Part shown: positions 7,832-62,271 of the stretch, in pieces
How the letters are laid out: each line of letters opens with the position of its first letter
Position numbering within the stretch: the stretch's first letter is position 1
Assembly (NCBI GenBank): GCA_030828385.1
Contig: JAURCS010000001.1
Coordinates: 62,001 to 126,000, forward strand
Direction: 5' to 3'
DNA length: 64,000 nt
Origin: Gammaproteobacteria bacterium
GTDB lineage: Bacteria; Pseudomonadota; Gammaproteobacteria; Pseudomonadales; Pseudohongiellaceae
The notes under the pieces: generated by a model
What the model was told of the DNA's origin: nothing
Databases searched by the model: none
Seen by the model: the letters and a program-made list of their open reading frames with translations, nothing else
Position numbers and translations under genes: made by a program

Positions 7832-7881
7832 TGCGCTTATTCTAAAAAAGCCGGAAATCATACTGGCTTGATTTGCATCAA
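7832..7881 (-). promoter_or_regulatory. FNR/ANR-type box with -10 element (class II geometry)
   Basis: TTGAT-TTGC-ATCAA at 7868-7881 is a perfect match to the FNR/ANR/DNR consensus TTGATNNNNATCAA. On the minus strand a -10-like TAGAAT lies at 7844-7839, which would place the start point near 7832 and the box centre about 42 nt upstream of it. That is the spacing of FNR-activated class II promoters. Translation of the oxygenase starts about 57 nt further on. The spacing is read from sequence; the activation is inference. Confidence 0.7.
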
Positions 7882-18915: not shown

Positions 18916-19332
18916 GTGAAACGCTTGTTGCTGTTATGTCTGTGTAATTTCGTTCTGGCGGGATGTGCCAATATGTAACTAACTCTGAGTTACCCTGGTG
19001 TCGCTTCGACCACTTTCAGGGTGCCTGTGTCCTTGCCGGAGAATTACAGTGAAGCGGGTATTGCGTCCTATTATGCGCACAAGTATCAGGGCAGGCTGAC
19101 GGCCAATGGCGAGCGTTTTGATATGTATGCCATCACCGCTGCACACAAGACGCTGCCCTTTGATACCAGGGTGAGAGTGTTTAATGTCAACAACGGGCGC
19201 AGCGTGGTGGTACGTATTAATGATCGCGGCCCCTTTATTGAGGGCCGCATCATTGATTTATCCTATTCCGCCTTTGCCCACATAGCCGATCATGAGCAGG
19301 GGTTGGCGGATGTGGTGCTGGAAATACTCTGA
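18916..19332 (+). pseudogene. RlpA-like lipoprotein, in-frame TAA after lipobox
   Basis: From GTG 18916 (purine-rich GAGGAGAG just upstream) the frame gives a lipoprotein signal with lipobox LAGC, then meets TAA at codon 21 (18976-18978). The same frame reopens at once and encodes a complete double-psi beta-barrel RlpA domain: [40 protein letters not shown] and RIIDLSY. RlpA proteins are outer-membrane lytic transglycosylases acting on denuded peptidoglycan at the septum. A restart at GTG 19021 would make the domain without its export signal. It is therefore either a pseudogene or a base error. Confidence 0.78.
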
Positions 19333-24729: not shown

Positions 24730-25536
24730 TTAACAGGCCTCGGGAAAGAAAGCCGATGTCTTGCCGGTAATAAAATAGACCAGCAGTCCAACCCATTCTC
24801 TTGCATAGGAATTCAGATCATCGAGACTATCAACCGGATCAAAAGACAGCTGCCATGAGCGCCCGGGTGTTGTTTGGTGATCCACCGGGTAGGGAATGAC
24901 CGGCCAGTTCTGCTGACAGAATACACCAACAGCTCTTGGCATGTGAGTTGCCGATGTCACTAAAAGCCAATTTTCACCTGGCTGAGGATTCATCAATGCC
25001 TTGCTGTTAATGGCGTTTTCGTAGGTATTACGGGAATCTCTTTCTATTTCCAAACGGCTTTTTCTAATACCCATGCTTTCCAGAAAATACAGCGCAACAT
25101 CGGCTTCTTTATATTCCTGATCCAGCAGGGTACCGGCTCCACCGCTAAAAATAAGTTTTGCCCGCGGATGACGCCTGGCCATTTCAATAAAGCCAAAATA
25201 GCGATCCGCAGCAGCGCCAAACTCAGGCTGGTCCCAGATATAGGAGGTTAGCGGATCAATGGCACCGCCAAGCAGAATGATGCCATCTACAGACCGGGGC
25301 AGTTCAGGATTGGCGGGAAAGCGTTTTTCCAGCGGTGTTGCCAGCCAGCCATCAACAGGTAGGAGTGTGATCAGGACAAGTAACACAGCGGATGCACCCA
25401 GCAACAGCCTTGCAACTTTTGTCTGGTCTAAAAAAAGCAGGGCGGTTCCTGCCAGCGCCATCAGCAATATTAATGTGCCTGGGGATAACAGTGCCCAGAG
25501 TATTTTGGAGAAGAAAAAAAACAGGCTATTTGCCAT
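24730..25536 (-). CDS. ElyC/SanA/YdcF-family (DUF218) membrane protein
   Basis: A 268-residue protein with two N-terminal membrane helices (about 5-30 and 35-60) and a DUF218 domain. The domain motifs are DGIILLGGAID, AKLIFSGGAG, ERDSRNTYENA and LLVTSATHMPRAVGVF. ElyC acts in peptidoglycan and undecaprenyl-phosphate carrier metabolism in E. coli; the domain arrangement here matches ElyC best. Function in this organism is inferred from family membership. Confidence 0.85.
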   Translation of the reverse strand: MANSLFFFFSKILWALLSPGTLILLMALAGTALLFLDQTKVARLLLGASAVLLVLITLLPVDGWLATPLEKRFPANPELPRSVDGIILLGGAIDPLTSYIWDQPEFGAAADRYFGFIEMARRHPRAKLIFSGGAGTLLDQEYKEADVALYFLESMGIRKSRLEIERDSRNTYENAINSKALMNPQPGENWLLVTSATHMPRAVGVFCQQNWPVIPYPVDHQTTPGRSWQLSFDPVDSLDDLNSYAREWVGLLVYFITGKTSAFFPEAC

Positions 25537-25670: not shown

Positions 25671-26042
25671 TTAATGCCTGGCGATTAATGCTTTGACTTC
25701 GTCCATGGTTTTGCCGGTTTGTTCCGCACACAGATCGAGAAAATCCATGCCATAAGCGGCGGTGAGTATTTTTATATTGGCAATCGTGGTTCCCAGTTCC
25801 AGCAAGCGCAGTATGTCCAGATCGGTAATGGCATGAATCTGATCCAGTACCAGTCCGTACTCACGGCAGTAACCCTCGGGAAATGCGCGAAATCGGCATT
25901 GGTTTTCTTTTTTGACCAGTGAGCTGCAAAGTTGATTAAGCATATCTCTCCCCTGTGCCAGGCGATTGAATGAAGACTCCGGCTCGGGGGATCGGTCTTC
26001 GGAAATTTTCCGAGCAAGTAAAAAAGAGATGACATTGTTCAT
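25671..26042 (-). CDS. Small protein of unknown function, 123 aa
   Basis: A soluble, mostly helical protein starting MNNVISFLLARK. ATG 26042 is preferred over a TTG at 26084, which would add a cysteine-rich, unlikely extension. Four cysteines are present in the chosen form, none in a recognised metal motif. It is directly downstream of the broken fnr gene on the same strand. No family recognised. Confidence 0.6.
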   Translation of the reverse strand: MNNVISFLLARKISEDRSPEPESSFNRLAQGRDMLNQLCSSLVKKENQCRFRAFPEGYCREYGLVLDQIHAITDLDILRLLELGTTIANIKILTAAYGMDFLDLCAEQTGKTMDEVKALIARH

Positions 26043-26153
26043 GGCAGCTATTGTTAATCGAAACAATAGGCAACAACAAATCAATTATTTTGGATGCTTG
26101 ATGTATGTCAAGACAAGCAGGTCATCAGTGACCCCCTGACAATTAATCAGCAA

Positions 26154-26894
26154 TTATTTTGCCGCGTGGCAGATTGATTGCAGCTGTTCGTGGTCGTTGA
26201 TATGAATTTCGCGTCCGTCGACTTTGATCAGTCCTTCTTTTTGCAGGCGGCTGAAAGTACGACTTACGGTTTCGATAGTCAGCCCAAGGAAATTACCTAT
26301 ATCCATTCTGGACATGGGCAGTCTTAGTGAATTGGGTGACAAGTTGCGGCGGCCAAAGCGTCTGGACAGACTAAGCAGCAAGGTGGCTACACGACCTTCG
26401 GCATTTTTCTTGCTCAGGGTTAACATCATCTGGTGATCAGCTTCTATTTGCTGGCTCATCAACTGGAAGAAGTGGCGTTGTAAAACCGGTATCTGCAGTG
26501 ACAGCTCTTCAATTCTTTAAAATGGAATTTCACAAACGGTTGAGGTCTCCATGGCCATAACATTACAACCATGTTTTTCGGTACCAATACCGTCAAAGCC
26601 GAGGATTTCACCAGGCAGGTAAAAGCCTGTCACCTGCTCAACACCATCGTCATCAAGCAGGTAGGTTTTTATCGAGCCCGAGCGCACAGCAAAAATAGAA
26701 GTGAAACCATCCCCGGTCCTGTAAATATGTTCTCCGGCCTGTATCGGACGACTGCGTTTGATAATGTTATCAACCTTGTCGATATCCTTGATGTCCATCG
26801 CAATGGGTAGTCACAACCCCTTGAGATTGCAGTCAGAACAGGACGACTGTATAAAACCATGGTTACAGGCAATATTGTAAGGATCAGTTGTCAT
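26154..26894 (-). pseudogene. fnr: FNR/ANR-type oxygen-sensing regulator, two in-frame stops
   Basis: The frame from ATG 26894 encodes a complete FNR-type protein of 246 codons, interrupted twice without loss of frame. N-terminus: CSDCNLKGL is followed by TGA at codon 28 (26813-26811), exactly where FNR has the cluster ligand matching Cys29 of E. coli. After LPIAMDIKDID the CRP-like sensor follows (GEHIYRTGD, VRSGSIKTY, EQVTGFYLPGE), with a cysteine in GCNVMAME. TAA at codon 126 (26519-26517) replaces the usual Glu of CEIPFE. The dimer helix and DNA-binding helix-turn-helix (GNFLGLTIETVSRTFSRL) are intact. FNR controls the aerobic/anaerobic switch. Either a pseudogene or two base errors. Confidence 0.85.
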
Positions 26895-27015: not shown

Positions 27016-28206
27016 TCAACCTGGAGCAAGGGGGATTATGTTTTCGGGCATGTGCTCATCAGGCATAAATTCCGCCAGTACATTGTTGAGGAAATTATAG
27101 CCTTTGTCGGTGGTGGCCAGATTTCCTTTTTTGAGCAGGCCGGCATGTCGTAATCGCTGCAGGGAACCTGCAATGTCACTGATCGGCAGACCGGTGCGCT
27201 GCTCATAAAGGCTTTCTTCAGTACCTGCACTCAGGCGTAATGCATTCATCATAAATTCAATAGGAAGCTCGGCCGGGGAAATCGTTTCGCTGCCGGCCAG
27301 AGTGTTATCGGCATGTTCCAGGTAACTGGCGGGCTGCCTGATTTTTCGGGTCCTGACGATTCGCTGTTCTGCGGGCAGGGTAATTTTGCCATGAGCGCCG
27401 GCGCCGATCCCCAGATAGTCTCCAAAACGCCAGTAATTCAGATTGTGGAGTGATTGTTTATTCGGTTTGCTGTAAGCAGACACTTCGTAGCGCGAAAATC
27501 CCTGCCGGGATAATAATTCCACACCAGCTTCCTGCATATCACTTAGCAAATCATCTTCGGGTAATGCCGGTGGTTTGCTGTAAAACACGGTATTGGGCTC
27601 GATGGTAAGCTGATACCAGCTCAGATGCTCAGGTTCAACAGCCAGCGCGGCGCGCAGGTCGGCCAGTGCTTCATCAATACCCTGTTGTGGTAAACCAAAC
27701 ATCAGGTCCAGATTGAAATTGTCGAAGCCGGCGGCTCTGACATTGGCGGCTGCGGTCAGCGCTTCCGTATCATCATGGACACGACCCAGTGCCAGCAGGT
27801 ATTTTTTGTTGAAACTCTGAATGCCAAGGGACAGCCGGTTAATGCCCGCATGACGAAAATCCCTAAACTTTTCCATTTCAAAGGTGCCGGGATTGGCTTC
27901 CATGGTAATTTCCAATGTTCCCGAAAAATGCAGTTGTTCTGAGATACCGGCGAGGAGTTTTTCAATACTTTTTGGAGAGAACAGACTGGGAGTGCCACCA
28001 CCAATAAAAATAGAAGTCAGTTCGCGACTCTGAACCCAGGGCAGGTCGCGCTTGAGGTCGGCAAGCAGACTATCGACATATGCTTGCTCAGGTAATTCGC
28101 CCTGAAAAGCATGGGAGTTAAAGTCGCAGTAAGGACATTTTTTAAGACACCAGGGAATATGAATATAAAGTGATAATGGTGGTAGTAAAAGTTGTGCCCG
28201 CTTCAT
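27016..28206 (-). CDS. hemW: HemW, radical SAM heme chaperone family
   Basis: A 396-residue radical-SAM protein with the CxxxCxxC cluster motif in HIPWCLKKCPYCDFNSH and a HemN-like C-terminal domain. The GGGTPS motif is present. HemW-type proteins lack coproporphyrinogen oxidase activity and insert heme into respiratory enzymes. The open frame extends 30 codons further, but ATG 28206 is chosen because it overlaps the rdgB stop (ATGA) and the family starts just after it. Conserved order rdgB-hemW as in Pseudomonas. Confidence 0.93.
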   Translation of the reverse strand: MKRAQLLLPPLSLYIHIPWCLKKCPYCDFNSHAFQGELPEQAYVDSLLADLKRDLPWVQSRELTSIFIGGGTPSLFSPKSIEKLLAGISEQLHFSGTLEITMEANPGTFEMEKFRDFRHAGINRLSLGIQSFNKKYLLALGRVHDDTEALTAAANVRAAGFDNFNLDLMFGLPQQGIDEALADLRAALAVEPEHLSWYQLTIEPNTVFYSKPPALPEDDLLSDMQEAGVELLSRQGFSRYEVSAYSKPNKQSLHNLNYWRFGDYLGIGAGAHGKITLPAEQRIVRTRKIRQPASYLEHADNTLAGSETISPAELPIEFMMNALRLSAGTEESLYEQRTGLPISDIAGSLQRLRHAGLLKKGNLATTDKGYNFLNNVLAEFMPDEHMPENIIPLAPG

Positions 28207-28814
28207 GCCGGTAGGCAGGCCAGCAGTTTTTGCAGAGCCTGAGAGCGATGGCTGATAGTATTTTTTACCAAAGGATCCAGCTCTGCCGATGCACATTCAT
28301 GGGAAGGGACATAAAAAAGCGGATCATAACCAAAGCCATTGCTGCCCACTTCGCTGAACATAATGCGTCCTTCCCAGGTTCCCTGACAAATCAGCGGCAT
28401 GGGGTCTTGCGGAAAACGGACCAGGGCAATACAGCATTGGAAGCGGGCACCCCTGTCAGCTTCGGCAACCTGCTCCAGGTTTGCCAGCAACAGGGCGTTG
28501 TTGGCGGCATCGTTTTTTTCACGACCTTCGTTGAGTCCGGCATAACGCGCGGAGAATATGCCGGGCTCCCCATTCAGGGCATCCACTTCAAGTCCGGAAT
28601 CATCCGCCAGTGCCGCCATACCCGTATGCTTGCTGGCATGGCGCGCTTTGATAATAGCGTTTTCAACAAAGCTCAGCCCATCTTCCACGGCATCCTCTAT
28701 CTCAAATTCAGATTGGGGAATGAGCTCGATATTTCTGGGCGCCAGTATATCCTGCAATTCTTTCAGTTTGGCGCTGTTGCTGCTGGCCAGTATGATTTTA
28801 TCCATAGGAATCAT
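28203..28814 (-). CDS. rdgB: XTP/dITP pyrophosphatase (RdgB/HAM1)
   Basis: A 203-residue nucleotide-sanitation enzyme that hydrolyses non-canonical purine triphosphates (dITP, XTP). The family motifs SSNSAKLKELQDIL, FVENAIIKARHASKHTG, ADDSGLEVDALNG and GSNGFGYDPLFYVP are all present. ATG 28814 has AGG a few bases upstream; an internal ATG at 28805 is possible. Its stop overlaps the hemW start, so the two are coupled. Confidence 0.94.
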   Translation of the reverse strand: MIPMDKIILASSNSAKLKELQDILAPRNIELIPQSEFEIEDAVEDGLSFVENAIIKARHASKHTGMAALADDSGLEVDALNGEPGIFSARYAGLNEGREKNDAANNALLLANLEQVAEADRGARFQCCIALVRFPQDPMPLICQGTWEGRIMFSEVGSNGFGYDPLFYVPSHECASAELDPLVKNTISHRSQALQKLLACLPA

Positions 28815-33445: not shown

Positions 33446-34480
33446 ATGAATATTCAGGAATTACTTAACTTCAGCGTACAGCAAGGCTCATCTGACCTGC
33501 ATATTACCGCTGGCATGCCACCCCTTATACGTGTTGATGGTGATATTCGCCGTATCAATGTGGATCCAATAGATCACAAGGAAGTCCATGGGCTTATTTA
33601 TGAAATTATGAACGACAGGCAGCGCAAGGATTATGAGGAGCATCTTGAGTCAGATTTCTCATTTGAAGTTCCCGGTTTGGCCCGTTTCAGGGTCAACGCC
33701 TTTGTCCAGAATCGCGGCGCAGCCGCCGTTTTCAGAACTATTCCTTCCAAGGTACTCACCATGGAACAGCTTGGCATGGGCAAGGTGTTTGAGGATATCT
33801 CCAACAATCCCCGTGGCCTGATTGCGGTAACCGGACCTACAGGTTCCGGTAAAAGTACTACCATGGCAGCGATGATCGATTATATCAACTCCACCAAGTA
33901 TGAGCATATCCTGACCATTGAAGATCCCATAGAATTTGTTCATGAAAGCAAGAAGTCGCTGATCAACCAGCGTGAAGTTCATCGTGATACCCATGGCTTT
34001 AATGAAGCTTTGCGCTCAGCCTTGCGTGAAGACCCTGACATTATTCTGGTTGGTGAATTGCGTGACCTGGAAACTATTCGTCTGGCATTAACAGCTGCAG
34101 AAACCGGTCACCTTGTCTTCGGTACTCTGCATACGACGTCTGCTGCTTAAACTATCGACAGGATCGTGGACGTATTTCCGGCTGCAGAAAAAAGTATGGT
34201 GCGTTCCATGCTCTCGGAATCATTGCAGGCGGTTGTCAGTCAGACCTTGCTGAAAAAAGTTGGCGGTGGCCGAGTGGCTACCCATGAGATTATGATCGGT
34301 ACATCAGCTATTCGAAATCTGATCAGGGAAGACAAGATTGCCCAGATGTATTCTGCAATCCAGACCGGACAGTCAGTAGGCATGCAGACTTTGGACCAGT
34401 GTTTGAAGCAACTGGTTGCCAAAGGGCTGGTTGATCGTCAGGAAGCGAAATCCAAAGCCAAGGACGGTAATCAGATCTAG
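33446..34480 (+). pseudogene. pilT: Type IV pilus retraction ATPase PilT, in-frame TAA
   Basis: The frame from ATG 33446 encodes a full 344-residue PilT. Walker A is GPTGSGKSTT, the Asp box ILTIEDPIE, Walker B DIILVGELRD and the His box GHLVFGTLHTTSA. At codon 235 a TAA (34148-34150) replaces the invariant Lys of SAAKTIDR. The same frame continues unchanged through VFPAAEKSMVRSMLSES and the essential AIRNLIRE motif to the TAG at 34478-34480. PilT powers pilus retraction and twitching. Truncation at residue 234 would remove AIRNLIRE. No pilU follows, unlike in Pseudomonas. A one-base change (AAA to TAA) explains it. Confidence 0.87.
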
Positions 34481-36617: not shown

Positions 36618-37578
36618 TCAGTCACGCAACTGCTGCAGTTTTTGCTCAATACAGTTCATCAGGTCGCCGGCAATATCCAGATTGAATATTTCATCCAGCT
36701 CCCTGATACAGGTCGGACTGGTAACATTTACTTCAGTCAGATAGTCACCAATCACATCAAGACCGACAAATAATAGCCCGTTTTCTTTCAGCGTAGGGCC
36801 CACCTGGTCACAAATCCAGCGATCTCTGTCACTTAGCTCCACCCCTTTTGCGGTGCCGCCGGCGGCAAGGTTGCCGCGGGTTTCATTAGCGGCGGGTAGT
36901 CGGGCCAACGCAAAGCCAACAGATTTTCCATCAATCATCAGAATGCGTTTGTCGCCACTGGAAATTTCCGGAATAAAGGTTTGCGCCATAATTTGTCGGG
37001 TACCGTATTCAGTTAGCGTTTCTATAATCACACTGATATTGGGGTCACCGGGTTTTATACGAAAAACACCGGTGCCGCCCATGCCATCGAGAGGCTTGAA
37101 AATGACATCTTTCTGAGCTTTATAGAAATCCTGCAGCAATTCCTTTTTTCGCGAAACCAGCACAGGCGTACAGCATTGTGGAAAAAGGGTAGCACTGACT
37201 TTCTCATTAAAGTCTCTGAGCGCTTGCGGCCTTGTTTACCACGAGTGTGCCGCCTTCCTCAGCCTGTTCGAGGATATAGCTGCAATAGATATACTCGAGA
37301 TCGAAAGGTGGATCCTTGCGCATCAGGATGACATCAACGTCGGCCAGTGATTGTCGGCTTTCAGGGCCAAGCGTGAAGAAGTTCTGAGGATTCATTTCTA
37401 CACTCAGGTCCTGCATGATGGCCATGGCCTTGCCATCTTCAAGATATAAACCATCCTGTTCAATGTAGAATAGTTGCCAGCCTTTTTTTTGCGCTGCATT
37501 CAACATGGCCAAAGTTGTATCTTTTTTGAAATTTATGGACTGGATTGGGTCCATGACTACGGCAAGTTTTACTGTCAT
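36618..37578 (-). pseudogene. gshB: Glutathione synthetase, single frameshift
   Basis: Two frames together encode a complete glutathione synthetase (319 residues): N-terminus VKLAVVMDPIQSINFKKDTT, C-terminus with ATP-grasp motifs FKPLDGMGGTGVFRI, TRQIMAQTFIPEI and VNVTSPTCIRELDE. The shift occurs near 37230, where an extra base (GGCC for GCC in AAG-CCG) changes VVNKPQALRDFNEKV into an early stop. One base removed restores the product. It joins gamma-glutamylcysteine and glycine. gshA (60703) is intact. Position next to tonB is conserved. Confidence 0.87.
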
Positions 37579-50577: not shown

Positions 50578-51806
50578 TTCGACCTTTTATCTACAGTCTT
50601 GTCGCGCTTGGAGTAGGTGCCTGGCTTTACACCATGCTTGGTGATGATCCGGGTTATGTGCTGATTTCCTTCGCTACCTGGTCAGTGGAAAGTACCCTGG
50701 TTGCCCTGGTATTGTTTCTGCTGGTCCTGCTGGTTCTTGTTTTTGGCTTTTATAAACTCCTTGCAATGCTCAATCCACTTGGTCTGTTGAAAGGGGATTC
50801 ATGGTTTGGCGCGTCGCGCCGCAGAAAAGCCGCCGCCGCTGCCAGCGAAGACGGCTTGCGTCTGTTATTACTGGGCCACTGGCAGGATGCCTATAAATTA
50901 CTGGTTGAGAATGCGGGCCGAGTCGACAGCCCGGTATTCAATTACCTTGCCGCAAGTCTGGCTGCCTGGCAACGCAAAGATGATGCCTCGTGGAACTACT
51001 GTCTGGAGCAGGCCGCACGTAAAGCAGGCACATCCAGTCCCGCTATCAAGTCTCTGAAAGCCCTGCTTGAGTTCCGCTCCGGAAAAATTGAACAAAGCCT
51101 GGCGATTCTCATCGCGTTGGATAGAGAAGCCCCTGGTAGTCCCTATGTGTTAAACCTGATCATGAACTGTTATCTCACTTTGCAGGATTGGGAAAAGCTC
51201 GGAACCTTGATGCCTGCACTGGAAAAACACAAGGTGGTTAATGCTTCAGAAATGCTTCGCCTGCAGGCAAAAATTGCTGCCCATAGTTTGAGTCGAATCA
51301 ACCTGCAAAACGGCACTGCCAGTCTTTTAAAAAGTCAGTGGCAAAGCATGGACAAGGAAGTAAAGCGCAACGAAGAAATGACGCTGGTCTACATGGAAAA
51401 GTTGCAGGAATTTTTACTGCCTGAAGAAGCCCTGGCAGTGGCATTGGCCTTCCTTAAAAAACAGTGGAGCGATCAGGTCGTTTTAAAAACAGGTTTTCTG
51501 GATGCCGCTGAACCTGGCAGATTATTGGTGCAGCTGGAACAATGGATAAAGGAAAGGCCTAGTAATCCGGCATTGATGCTCAGCCTGGGTCGCGTCAGTT
51601 TACGCAACAAACTATGGGGCAAGGCCAGGGAATATTTTGAAAGCAGCCTGCGTTTTTCAAAGAGCAAGGCTCTTTCTGCAGAAGCCAATGCCGAGTTAGC
51701 CCGACTGATGGACCATCTGGGTGAACATGCACACAGTGCTTCTCTTTATAGAAAAGCCCTGGCGCAGTTGGAGCATCGCTTGCCTGAATTGCCTATGCCG
51801 GAATGA
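50574..51806 (+). CDS. hemY: HemY-family TPR membrane protein
   Basis: A 410-residue protein with two N-terminal membrane helices (about 3-20 and 38-62) and a TPR-rich soluble part (LGHWQDAYKLLVENAG, ASLAAWQRKDDASWNYCLEQA, LWGKAREYFESSL). It is the gammaproteobacterial HemY of the hemCDXY operon, unrelated to protoporphyrinogen oxidase HemY of Bacillus. The role is thought to be scaffolding late heme steps. Confidence 0.88.
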   Translation: MIRPFIYSLVALGVGAWLYTMLGDDPGYVLISFATWSVESTLVALVLFLLVLLVLVFGFYKLLAMLNPLGLLKGDSWFGASRRRKAAAAASEDGLRLLLLGHWQDAYKLLVENAGRVDSPVFNYLAASLAAWQRKDDASWNYCLEQAARKAGTSSPAIKSLKALLEFRSGKIEQSLAILIALDREAPGSPYVLNLIMNCYLTLQDWEKLGTLMPALEKHKVVNASEMLRLQAKIAAHSLSRINLQNGTASLLKSQWQSMDKEVKRNEEMTLVYMEKLQEFLLPEEALAVALAFLKKQWSDQVVLKTGFLDAAEPGRLLVQLEQWIKERPSNPALMLSLGRVSLRNKLWGKAREYFESSLRFSKSKALSAEANAELARLMDHLGEHAHSASLYRKALAQLEHRLPELPMPE

Positions 51807-51808
51807 CT

Positions 51809-51879
51809 TAAGCGGAAAAAAGATGAAGGAAAAAGGATAAAGGTGAGCGGAGTAACAAGTTGCAAGTTGCAAGTCTCAA
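51809..51879 (+). repeat. Composite heptamer array (purine-rich class then GTNNCAA)
   Basis: From 51809 the sequence divides into 7-nt words in constant register: TAAGCGG, AAAAAAG, ATGAAGG, AAAAAGG, ATAAAGG and TGAGCGG. It then passes with a one-base offset of the reading frame into GTAACAA, GTTGCAA, GTTGCAA and GTCTCAA (51852-51879). The first words recur in almost the same order at 59042-59083. It lies just after the hemY stop. Confidence 0.65.
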
Positions 51880-55502: not shown

Positions 55503-55670
55503 TGTGGTTTCCTTGAAATGGTGATTATTGAATTACGGAATCATTCAGTAGGTTAATAATAAGGGCAAATTGTGACTATTCAAGTGAATAAGCGCAATAT
55601 TACTGAAACTGTAATTGGCCAGTACGATTACCCTGGCTGGTTCCAGCTTCTGCTCTTCTTTTTTATCGGG

Positions 55671-59027: not shown

Positions 59028-59083
59028 AAGAGGCAAGAGGCAAGCGGGATAAAAGATAAAGGATAAAGGATAAAGGTGACCGG
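59028..59083 (+). repeat. Purine-rich heptamer array, 8 words in register
   Basis: AAGAGGC, AAGAGGC, AAGCGGG, ATAAAAG, ATAAAGG, ATAAAGG, ATAAAGG, TGACCGG: the 7-nt phase is kept while the word changes. The order AAGCGG, then AT-words, then TGASCGG is shared with 51809-51850. Confidence 0.7.
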
Positions 59084-59212
59084 GGCGGGTGGAATGGTGG
59101 GCTGGATGAGACCGTTTGCTTCGATCTGACAAAATAGTATTCCTTGAATACCCGCAGGGAAATATCTACCTGTAGGTCAAGATAGAAGATGATAGATACT
59201 TTACAGGATAAA

Positions 59213-60702: not shown

Positions 60703-62271
60703 TTATGAAGCATTCATTTGCTTCAGGTAAGTTTCAAAATCAATGGTATCCGAAGATTCTATCGCTTCCCTCTCAAGATTGGATTTTTCAGACATTTCTT
60801 TCAATGAGTTCAGCTTTTTTTCATCCAGCGTTTGAGCACGGAAGTAATCGCTGTTAGCAAGAGACTGATTCATGGCAAAAGTAAAATAAGGTGTTTTTAA
60901 TTCATCCATGCGCTGTAGAATTTTTGCCGAGGGAGTCAGTGCGCTGTCCTGAACTTTTGCAAGTTGTGCCTGGGTGGCTTTACGGTGTACGTCATTGCCG
61001 TGAATGTCGTCCATTAATCCGGAGATCTCAAGCGTTTCAGCTAGGATTTCTTCTGCCCAATCCTGCAGGGGAATTAATTTTCCGGTACTGCTAAGTTCCA
61101 GCCCGGGTTCCCTGCCACGATTAACCACGGTCCTCAGATTCTGTTCAATTTCAGTATATTCATCGGAATCGGAAGGTCGACTTTTGCGCAGTAAGCAGAA
61201 TAAAAGAAAGCTGTTAAGGAAATATATTTCCTCGTTATCAATACCAACCGGCAGGAAGGGGTTAAGGTCCAGACAGCGAACCTCAATATACTCAACTCCC
61301 TGTTGGCGTAAAACCTGAACTGGTCGCAAGCCCGAAGAAGTTACCCGTTTGGGTCGTATGGTGCTGTAAAACTCGTTTTCAATTTGCAGGATATTGTCAT
61401 TGAGTTGCTTGAACTGACCGTTTTCCGGTGCAAACTTTTTATAGGGTGCATAGGGCGTTTTAATCGCACTGGTCAGATCATTGGCATAGTTTTCCAGATT
61501 GTTGTAACTGACATAAAGACCTGACTGGGCATCACTGGTGTAACCAAGGTCACCCATTCTAAGACAGGTGCCATGAGGCATATAAAGTGTGCCATGGTCA
61601 TACTCTTCAAGACCATGGTGTTTGTTGTTTCGCACAAAACTCTTGCACACCGCCGGTGATGCACCAAACAAATAAAGTAGCAGCCAGGAATAACGGCGGA
61701 AATTTCGGATCAGATTAAAATATTGTTCGGTTTTGAAATCCTGCAGCGGTAGCTCTGATCGATTCAGGTCTTTATATAATTCCCAAAAACTATCCGGCAA
61801 TGAAAAATTGAAATGAATGCCGGCAATGGTTTGCATCGCTCGCCCATAGCGGTAACTTAGTCCCATGCGGTACAGCGTTTTAAGTTTCGCTACATTGGAT
61901 GAGCCGTATTGTGCCAGGAGAATTTTGCTGTCGTCATCCAGCACGCAGGGCATGCTCGAGGTCCACAGCAATTCTTCCCGATCCATCTGGGTAAACAAAA
62001 AGGTATGCAGGTCTGCCATATAGTCCAGACATTTATCGGGAGAATGAAAAACTGGCGTAATAAATTCCAGCAGTGCTTCGGAAAAATCCGTGGTTACGCT
62101 GGGATGGGTGAGTGGAGAGCCGAGGCCAGCCGGGTGCAGGCTTTGGGCAATATGACCTTGCGGATTAACGCGCAGGCTTTCCTTTTCTATGCCGATACCA
62201 ATATCAGAGAGGCAACCTATTTTGGAGGACTCGGTGAGCTGGCTCAGGCGCTGCTTCAATTGATCCGGCAA
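60703..62271 (-). CDS. gshA: Glutamate-cysteine ligase
   Basis: A 522-residue class I glutamate-cysteine ligase with GIEKESLRVNPQGHIAQS, the ITPVFHSPDKCL region and the motif YIEVRCLDLNPFLPVGID. First step of glutathione synthesis, forming gamma-glutamylcysteine from Glu and Cys. No lesion is seen, in contrast to gshB at 36618. Confidence 0.94.
   Translation of the reverse strand: MPDQLKQRLSQLTESSKIGCLSDIGIGIEKESLRVNPQGHIAQSLHPAGLGSPLTHPSVTTDFSEALLEFITPVFHSPDKCLDYMADLHTFLFTQMDREELLWTSSMPCVLDDDSKILLAQYGSSNVAKLKTLYRMGLSYRYGRAMQTIAGIHFNFSLPDSFWELYKDLNRSELPLQDFKTEQYFNLIRNFRRYSWLLLYLFGASPAVCKSFVRNNKHHGLEEYDHGTLYMPHGTCLRMGDLGYTSDAQSGLYVSYNNLENYANDLTSAIKTPYAPYKKFAPENGQFKQLNDNILQIENEFYSTIRPKRVTSSGLRPVQVLRQQGVEYIEVRCLDLNPFLPVGIDNEEIYFLNSFLLFCLLRKSRPSDSDEYTEIEQNLRTVVNRGREPGLELSSTGKLIPLQDWAEEILAETLEISGLMDDIHGNDVHRKATQAQLAKVQDSALTPSAKILQRMDELKTPYFTFAMNQSLANSDYFRAQTLDEKKLNSLKEMSEKSNLEREAIESSDTIDFETYLKQMNAS

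Follow-up and report, generated by a model that had tools for sequence, protein, structure and literature searches.

FNR and Anr control the cbb3 oxidase through TTGATNNNNATCAA boxes. Laboratory strains that have lost a global oxygen regulator are already known. An excerpt of one report describes an amber at fnr codon 141 in Escherichia coli BL21(DE3) and many B strains, with full-length FNR undetected in BL21(DE3) by Western blot (PMC3149613), and an excerpt of another describes truncated Fnr in radiation-evolved E. coli, in each of the nine isolates obtained by further evolution of one line (PMC3939492). Here we analyzed a stretch of 64,000 nucleotides (the window; positions 62,001 to 126,000 of contig JAURCS010000001.1, assembly GCA_030828385.1) from a gammaproteobacterium of the family Pseudohongiellaceae, in which an earlier note, made from the letters alone, had pointed to an fnr gene interrupted twice in frame. 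The locus is very probably a recently inactivated fnr and one of several such losses in its genus.

Results

Two Stops in an Otherwise Ordinary fnr

The window’s genome (G000; 2.62 Mb in 149 contigs, completeness 100, contamination 0.83) was compared within a set of seven species genomes of its genus (G000 to G006), all from uncultured Gammaproteobacteria and one per species; all seven are, or look like, metagenome assemblies (five are tied to such records). The FNR reading frame lies on the minus strand, from window position 26894 to 26154, and comprises 246 codons, two of which are stops, plus a terminator; the plus strand of 26154-26894, read in a single frame, has stops throughout. We confirmed both interruptions on the minus strand, as a TGA at codon 28 (26811..26813) and a TAA at codon 126 (26517..26519, after CEIPF), and found no other stop over the 246 codons. 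The remainder is, as the note had described it, an ordinary FNR. The frame is otherwise open, its two longer pieces match the NCBIfam family PRK11161 (FNR; E 4e-32 and 2e-33, both scoring under the whole-protein cut-off, which fragments would be expected to do), and Pfam recognizes cNMP-binding and Crp helix-turn-helix domains in the pieces; the family match is present over both the sensor and the DNA-binding parts.

Cysteines 10, 19, 22, 28, 110, 121, and 242 are invariant in an alignment of 10 open relatives. We take codons 19, 22, 28, and 121 to be the four cluster ligands by E. coli numbering, codon 28 being Cys29, an assignment made from the aligned relatives, with E. coli FNR itself outside the alignment. 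The gene in G000 encodes three of these four cysteines. Where relatives have their third N-terminal [4Fe-4S] cysteine (codon 28; Cys in 9/9 of those compared), it has TGA instead, and the placement of this stop on a cluster cysteine thus held up. The TAA had been said to replace a glutamate: its position is right, and the residue is Glu in six of the nine relatives compared and Ala, His, or Thr in the other three.

No single open frame runs from the start to the helix-turn-helix. The product predicted from the gene as written is a 27-residue peptide that breaks off where the third N-terminal cluster cysteine should stand. If translation began again at the codon-33 ATG, the result would be a 93-residue piece that ends at the TAA and lacks both the N-terminal cysteines and the helix-turn-helix DNA-binding domain. 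Because the first product would end at 27 residues and the restart piece has neither cysteines nor helix-turn-helix, no oxygen-sensing regulator should be made, and the gene as it reads would give no active protein. We found no second close FNR in the genome, the sole other match being 25% identical, and with two stops in the only close copy the oxygen switch is most likely lost, as the note had proposed.

Probable Losses of fnr Across the Genus and Family

The gene is flanked upstream by the conserved hemW (27016..28296, minus strand) and downstream by a LigA-like small protein (25671..26084, minus strand) and an ElyC/DUF218 protein (24730..25536, minus strand). In G003 and G005, fnr is open and adjoins hemW as in G000, and the changes in G000 are disabling relative to these orthologues at the same locus; the open copy of G003 lies on a contig titled with coverage 1.04. 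In G001, hemW and ElyC are adjacent with nothing fnr-like between them, the two genes marking the flanks of the empty site, and the LigA-like gene is not found at that place. The other three genomes carry lesions of their own. In G002, the start is ATT for ATG, with no in-frame ATG, GTG, or TTG back to the preceding stop, and the ATT could serve as a weak start; in G004, there is one TAG; G006 has lost two bases at codon 19, which aligns with the first ligand cysteine, and also carries a TAG and a deletion of three bases. Across these closest genomes, fnr is therefore open in two of seven, carries different disabling changes in four, counting the TGA and TAA of G000, and is absent from one.

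Outside the genus, 27 of 30 genomes from other genera of the family have a near full-length, stop-free fnr match. The three exceptions are G025, with no close match; G024, with a frameshift near codon 170; and G007, with an out-of-frame deletion around codons 150-173 in a gene that a contig end cuts as well; the latter two belong to the same genus, g2. The difference from 2/7 is significant (Fisher p 0.0023, a value that weakens if G002 is counted as open and that concerns this family, 21 genomes of other families being left out). A tree from hemW, fnr, and pilT joins G000 with G002 (97.2% identity over 50 kb), then G003, and then G005 (support 100, 100, and 79; deeper nodes 67-83). The lesions would represent at the least two independent losses of fnr and, on this tree, four or five. 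Several genomes also contain weak Crp-like or fragment matches (about eight among the matches listed, mostly at 23-27% identity, with one or two apparent stops each within the aligned stretch). A short FNR-like C-terminal fragment with a TAA, 60% identical over 40 residues, is present at G003:C202:3485-3604.

Substitution Pattern

Read by eye, the G000 branch of fnr shows two nonsense changes beside some five synonymous ones and no more than one missense, whereas random changes in this gene would give nonsense and missense in a ratio of about 1:24 (nonsense making up ~4% of amino-acid-changing changes). This is unlike free decay, which would rarely bring a second stop before any missense change. 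The dN/dS of fnr is 0.13 between G000 and G002 vs. 0.02-0.07 in wider fnr pairs, although intact-looking neighbors at the same short distance are high as well (hemW 0.10, ElyC 0.33). Over 14,283 codons, G000 and G002 differ by 887 synonymous, 328 missense, and five accepted nonsense changes. Of these five, two fall in fnr, one in pilT of each genome, and one in rlpA; two same-gene pairs among five would arise by chance with a probability of roughly 0.0145. Differences between the two genomes are transition-dominated, with no C>A excess in G000 (149 vs. 161 A>C). An oxidative-damage signature, brought up by the C-to-A or G-to-T form of some G000-branch changes in fnr, was rejected, as no such bias appears over 55 kb of G000/G002.

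Other Broken Genes and Assembly Controls

Three other conserved genes are broken in the same 18 kb of G000: an rlpA-like gene (18916..19332, plus strand) with an internal TAA near its start (18976-18978); pilT, of the type IV pilus retraction ATPase family (33446..34480, plus strand), with a TAA at 34148-34150; and gshB, encoding glutathione synthase (36618..37578, minus strand), with a frameshift near 37231 and a single frame in G002 and G006. Stops in pilT recur in G002 (G002:C113:24779-25813; TAA at another codon) and in a partial copy in G004 (TAG), and G001 gave no pilT match at E 1e-100. The gene is open in G003, G005, and G006 and broken or undetected in the other four of the seven genomes. 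A PilB match over the cut-off was found in only G003 and G006 of the seven.

Several further observations were made in passing. On contigs C22, C44, and C3 of G002, several ATPase genes of the type IV pilus or secretion kind are fragmented. The ElyC gene is split by a frameshift in G005 (G005:C149), and in a multicopper oxidase piece near 376620 of G006:C15, a TAG stands where the G000 protein has Trp. A dispersed repeat of ~41 bases, possibly a REP- or MITE-like element, occurs in the window at about 51814-51853 and 59047-59088; among the candidates listed, its copies are numerous in G000, G002, G003, and G005 and scarce in G004 and G006.

Control genes were clean. Translation-type GTPases found with the SelB model showed 0 internal stops in 58 matches across the seven genomes, and an ABC-ATPase search (268 matches) showed none among the matches listed. 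Six other 20-kb stretches of G000, scanned against G006 with nonoverlapping frames, matched 80 of 109 G006 frames over 78,166 bases with no accepted lesion. Four G000 stops were left out of this control, three of them in antisense-looking weak frames (55-58% identity). Leaving out the fourth was a judgment call: its frame matches G002 at 96.6%, and the stop precedes a methionine by two codons within a variable N terminus. Also omitted were G000 stops at window positions 55522 and 55549, which appear only when the short G000 frame at whose end they lie is compared with a longer frame of G002; stops ahead of the likely start in hemW of G005 and in a large oxidoreductase of G005 and G006; and a nonsense difference at 51801, where the G000 frame ends naturally two codons later. 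Other stops in G005, G006, G014, and G001, some in low-identity or opposite-strand frames, were not counted. The clean control genes argue against poor assembly of G000. Beside fnr, 3/57 genes are broken in the window region vs. 0/80 elsewhere (p 0.07), and of the G000 branch-specific changes at conserved sites, 15/29 fall within the 18 kb vs. 7/27 for G002 (Fisher p 0.06); the cluster of lesions could mean that genes here are truly decaying or that the assembly is weaker in this stretch.

The cbb3 Operon and FNR Boxes

A ccoN match over the cut-off was found in only three of the seven genomes, G000, G003, and G005. The operon in G000 has ccoN, ccoO, and ccoP all open behind an FNR-type box, TTGATATCTATCAA, which has an equivalent in G003 and is the same in G005. 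From this box and the known action of FNR and Anr, the operon is probably under FNR control in G000. Between G000 and G003, the dN/dS of ccoN, ccoO, and ccoP is 0.03-0.06, a range that mostly reflects the time before fnr broke and is no proof of present cbb3 use. In G002, the flanks of the operon are joined in a clean deletion of about 4.3 kb, and at the junction the flank alignments overlap by ten bases that form a short direct repeat in G000. A search for narG found it in 0/7 genomes of the genus.

By exact pattern, FNR boxes number 10 each in G000, G002, G005, and G006, 17 in G003, 7 in G004, and 4 in G001, against 0-4 for the reversed pattern, which is a poor control since the pattern contains TAG. 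One box, on contig C32 of G000, has a counterpart of the same spelling in G001, which lacks fnr; not every box, therefore, need serve FNR. Another exact FNR-type box lies between two minus-strand genes at window positions 7868-7881.

Discussion

A TGA exactly on a cysteine, in a protein that is otherwise conserved, invites the thought that selenocysteine insertion or stop-codon readthrough still delivers a full-length FNR, and the earlier note had raised it while counting the TAA against it. That objection is sound, as the second stop is indeed TAA and the stops are not all UGA. Moreover, neither SelB over the family cut-off (eight sub-cut-off matches resemble other GTPases) nor tRNA-Sec over the gathering score was found in G000, and the damage in related species consists of TAG codons elsewhere in the frame, a frameshift, or deletion. 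We reject the idea as extremely improbable. The position of the stop is also unremarkable: a relative’s fnr allows 81-83 nonsense changes in a single step, with 3.7% of their weight on the four ligand cysteines, and because a random pair of nonsense changes hits a ligand at least once in about 7% of cases, a TGA at a ligand needs no special explanation. The case is most likely one of repeated gene loss, with no new reading of the genetic code. No Rfam model matched the window at the gathering score. Elsewhere in the genus, SelB and tRNA-Sec lie side by side in G005 (G005:C104) and G006 (G006:C1), two of the seven species, and neither reaches the cut-off in the others.

A consensus or assembly error would leave fnr open in the population, with the stops arising from low coverage or mixed reads. 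The assembly is of metagenome type and known here from its consensus alone, and two nonsense changes with almost no missense are what such an error might leave behind. The same could be said of the pilT and rlpA stops and the gshB frameshift, which share one 18-kb stretch with fnr, and of the mild excess there of G000 changes at conserved sites. We nevertheless consider it unlikely: control genes of the same assembly have no accepted stops, the G000/G002 differences are dominated by transitions and by synonymous over missense codons with no C>A excess, and separate assemblies of related species show other lesions in fnr. The otherwise conserved protein, the different lesion in each species, and the still open cbb3 operon would also fit fnr and pilT losses kept as population polymorphisms, each assembly sampling a null copy; however, the comparison comprises one genome per species, and we regard such standing null alleles as very unlikely. 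Recent inactivation of fnr, the reading we prefer, would itself be in some tension with a protein nearly unchanged apart from its stops and with a boxed cbb3 operon that is still present.

In this genus, where no nitrate reductase was found, the regulator’s remaining visible duty is probably the FNR-boxed cbb3 operon. In G000, the sensor would be dead with the operon still open, whereas in its closest relative, G002, the operon has been cut out. We infer a loss of FNR control with cbb3 as a likely orphaned target, the order of events being likewise read from the genomes. The rewiring that the note had offered as the alternative to loss may have occurred, the boxed operon being still open. A more specific scenario, which we put forward tentatively and think unlikely, is an ordered dismantling: the sensor died first, cbb3 and its box are still open, and the operon either answers to another regulator by now or will soon be lost by deletion, the fate it met in the sister species, with fnr and pilT as repeated targets of loss on leaving low-oxygen surfaces. 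Overall, the lineage is most likely shedding fnr, pilT, and, in part, cbb3. If true, this would offer a natural series, resting on seven assemblies, in which to ask whether the regulator or its regulon is lost first, the type IV pilus motor and partly the high-affinity oxidase disappearing alongside fnr. Our search for literature linking fnr loss to cbb3, pili, or streamlining, which had most subscription journals outside its reach, returned nothing on the genus.

A broken fnr is of a known kind, and the point added here is its repeated loss in one uncultured genus. As in the excerpted account of E. coli B strains (PMC3149613), a nonsense change sits in an otherwise normal fnr; the B strains, however, have one amber in a laboratory lineage, whereas G000 has two stops in an uncultured species whose relatives have lost the gene repeatedly. 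As in radiation-evolved E. coli, loss of fnr is tolerated, but that case is one of laboratory evolution, and the excerpt of the report ties it to neither cbb3 nor pilus loss (PMC3939492). Finally, G000, G003, and G005 resemble the FNR/Anr-cbb3 systems in having a box upstream of ccoNOP. Unlike in those systems, the regulator in G000 is broken while the box and the operon, with their control predicted from sequence, remain.
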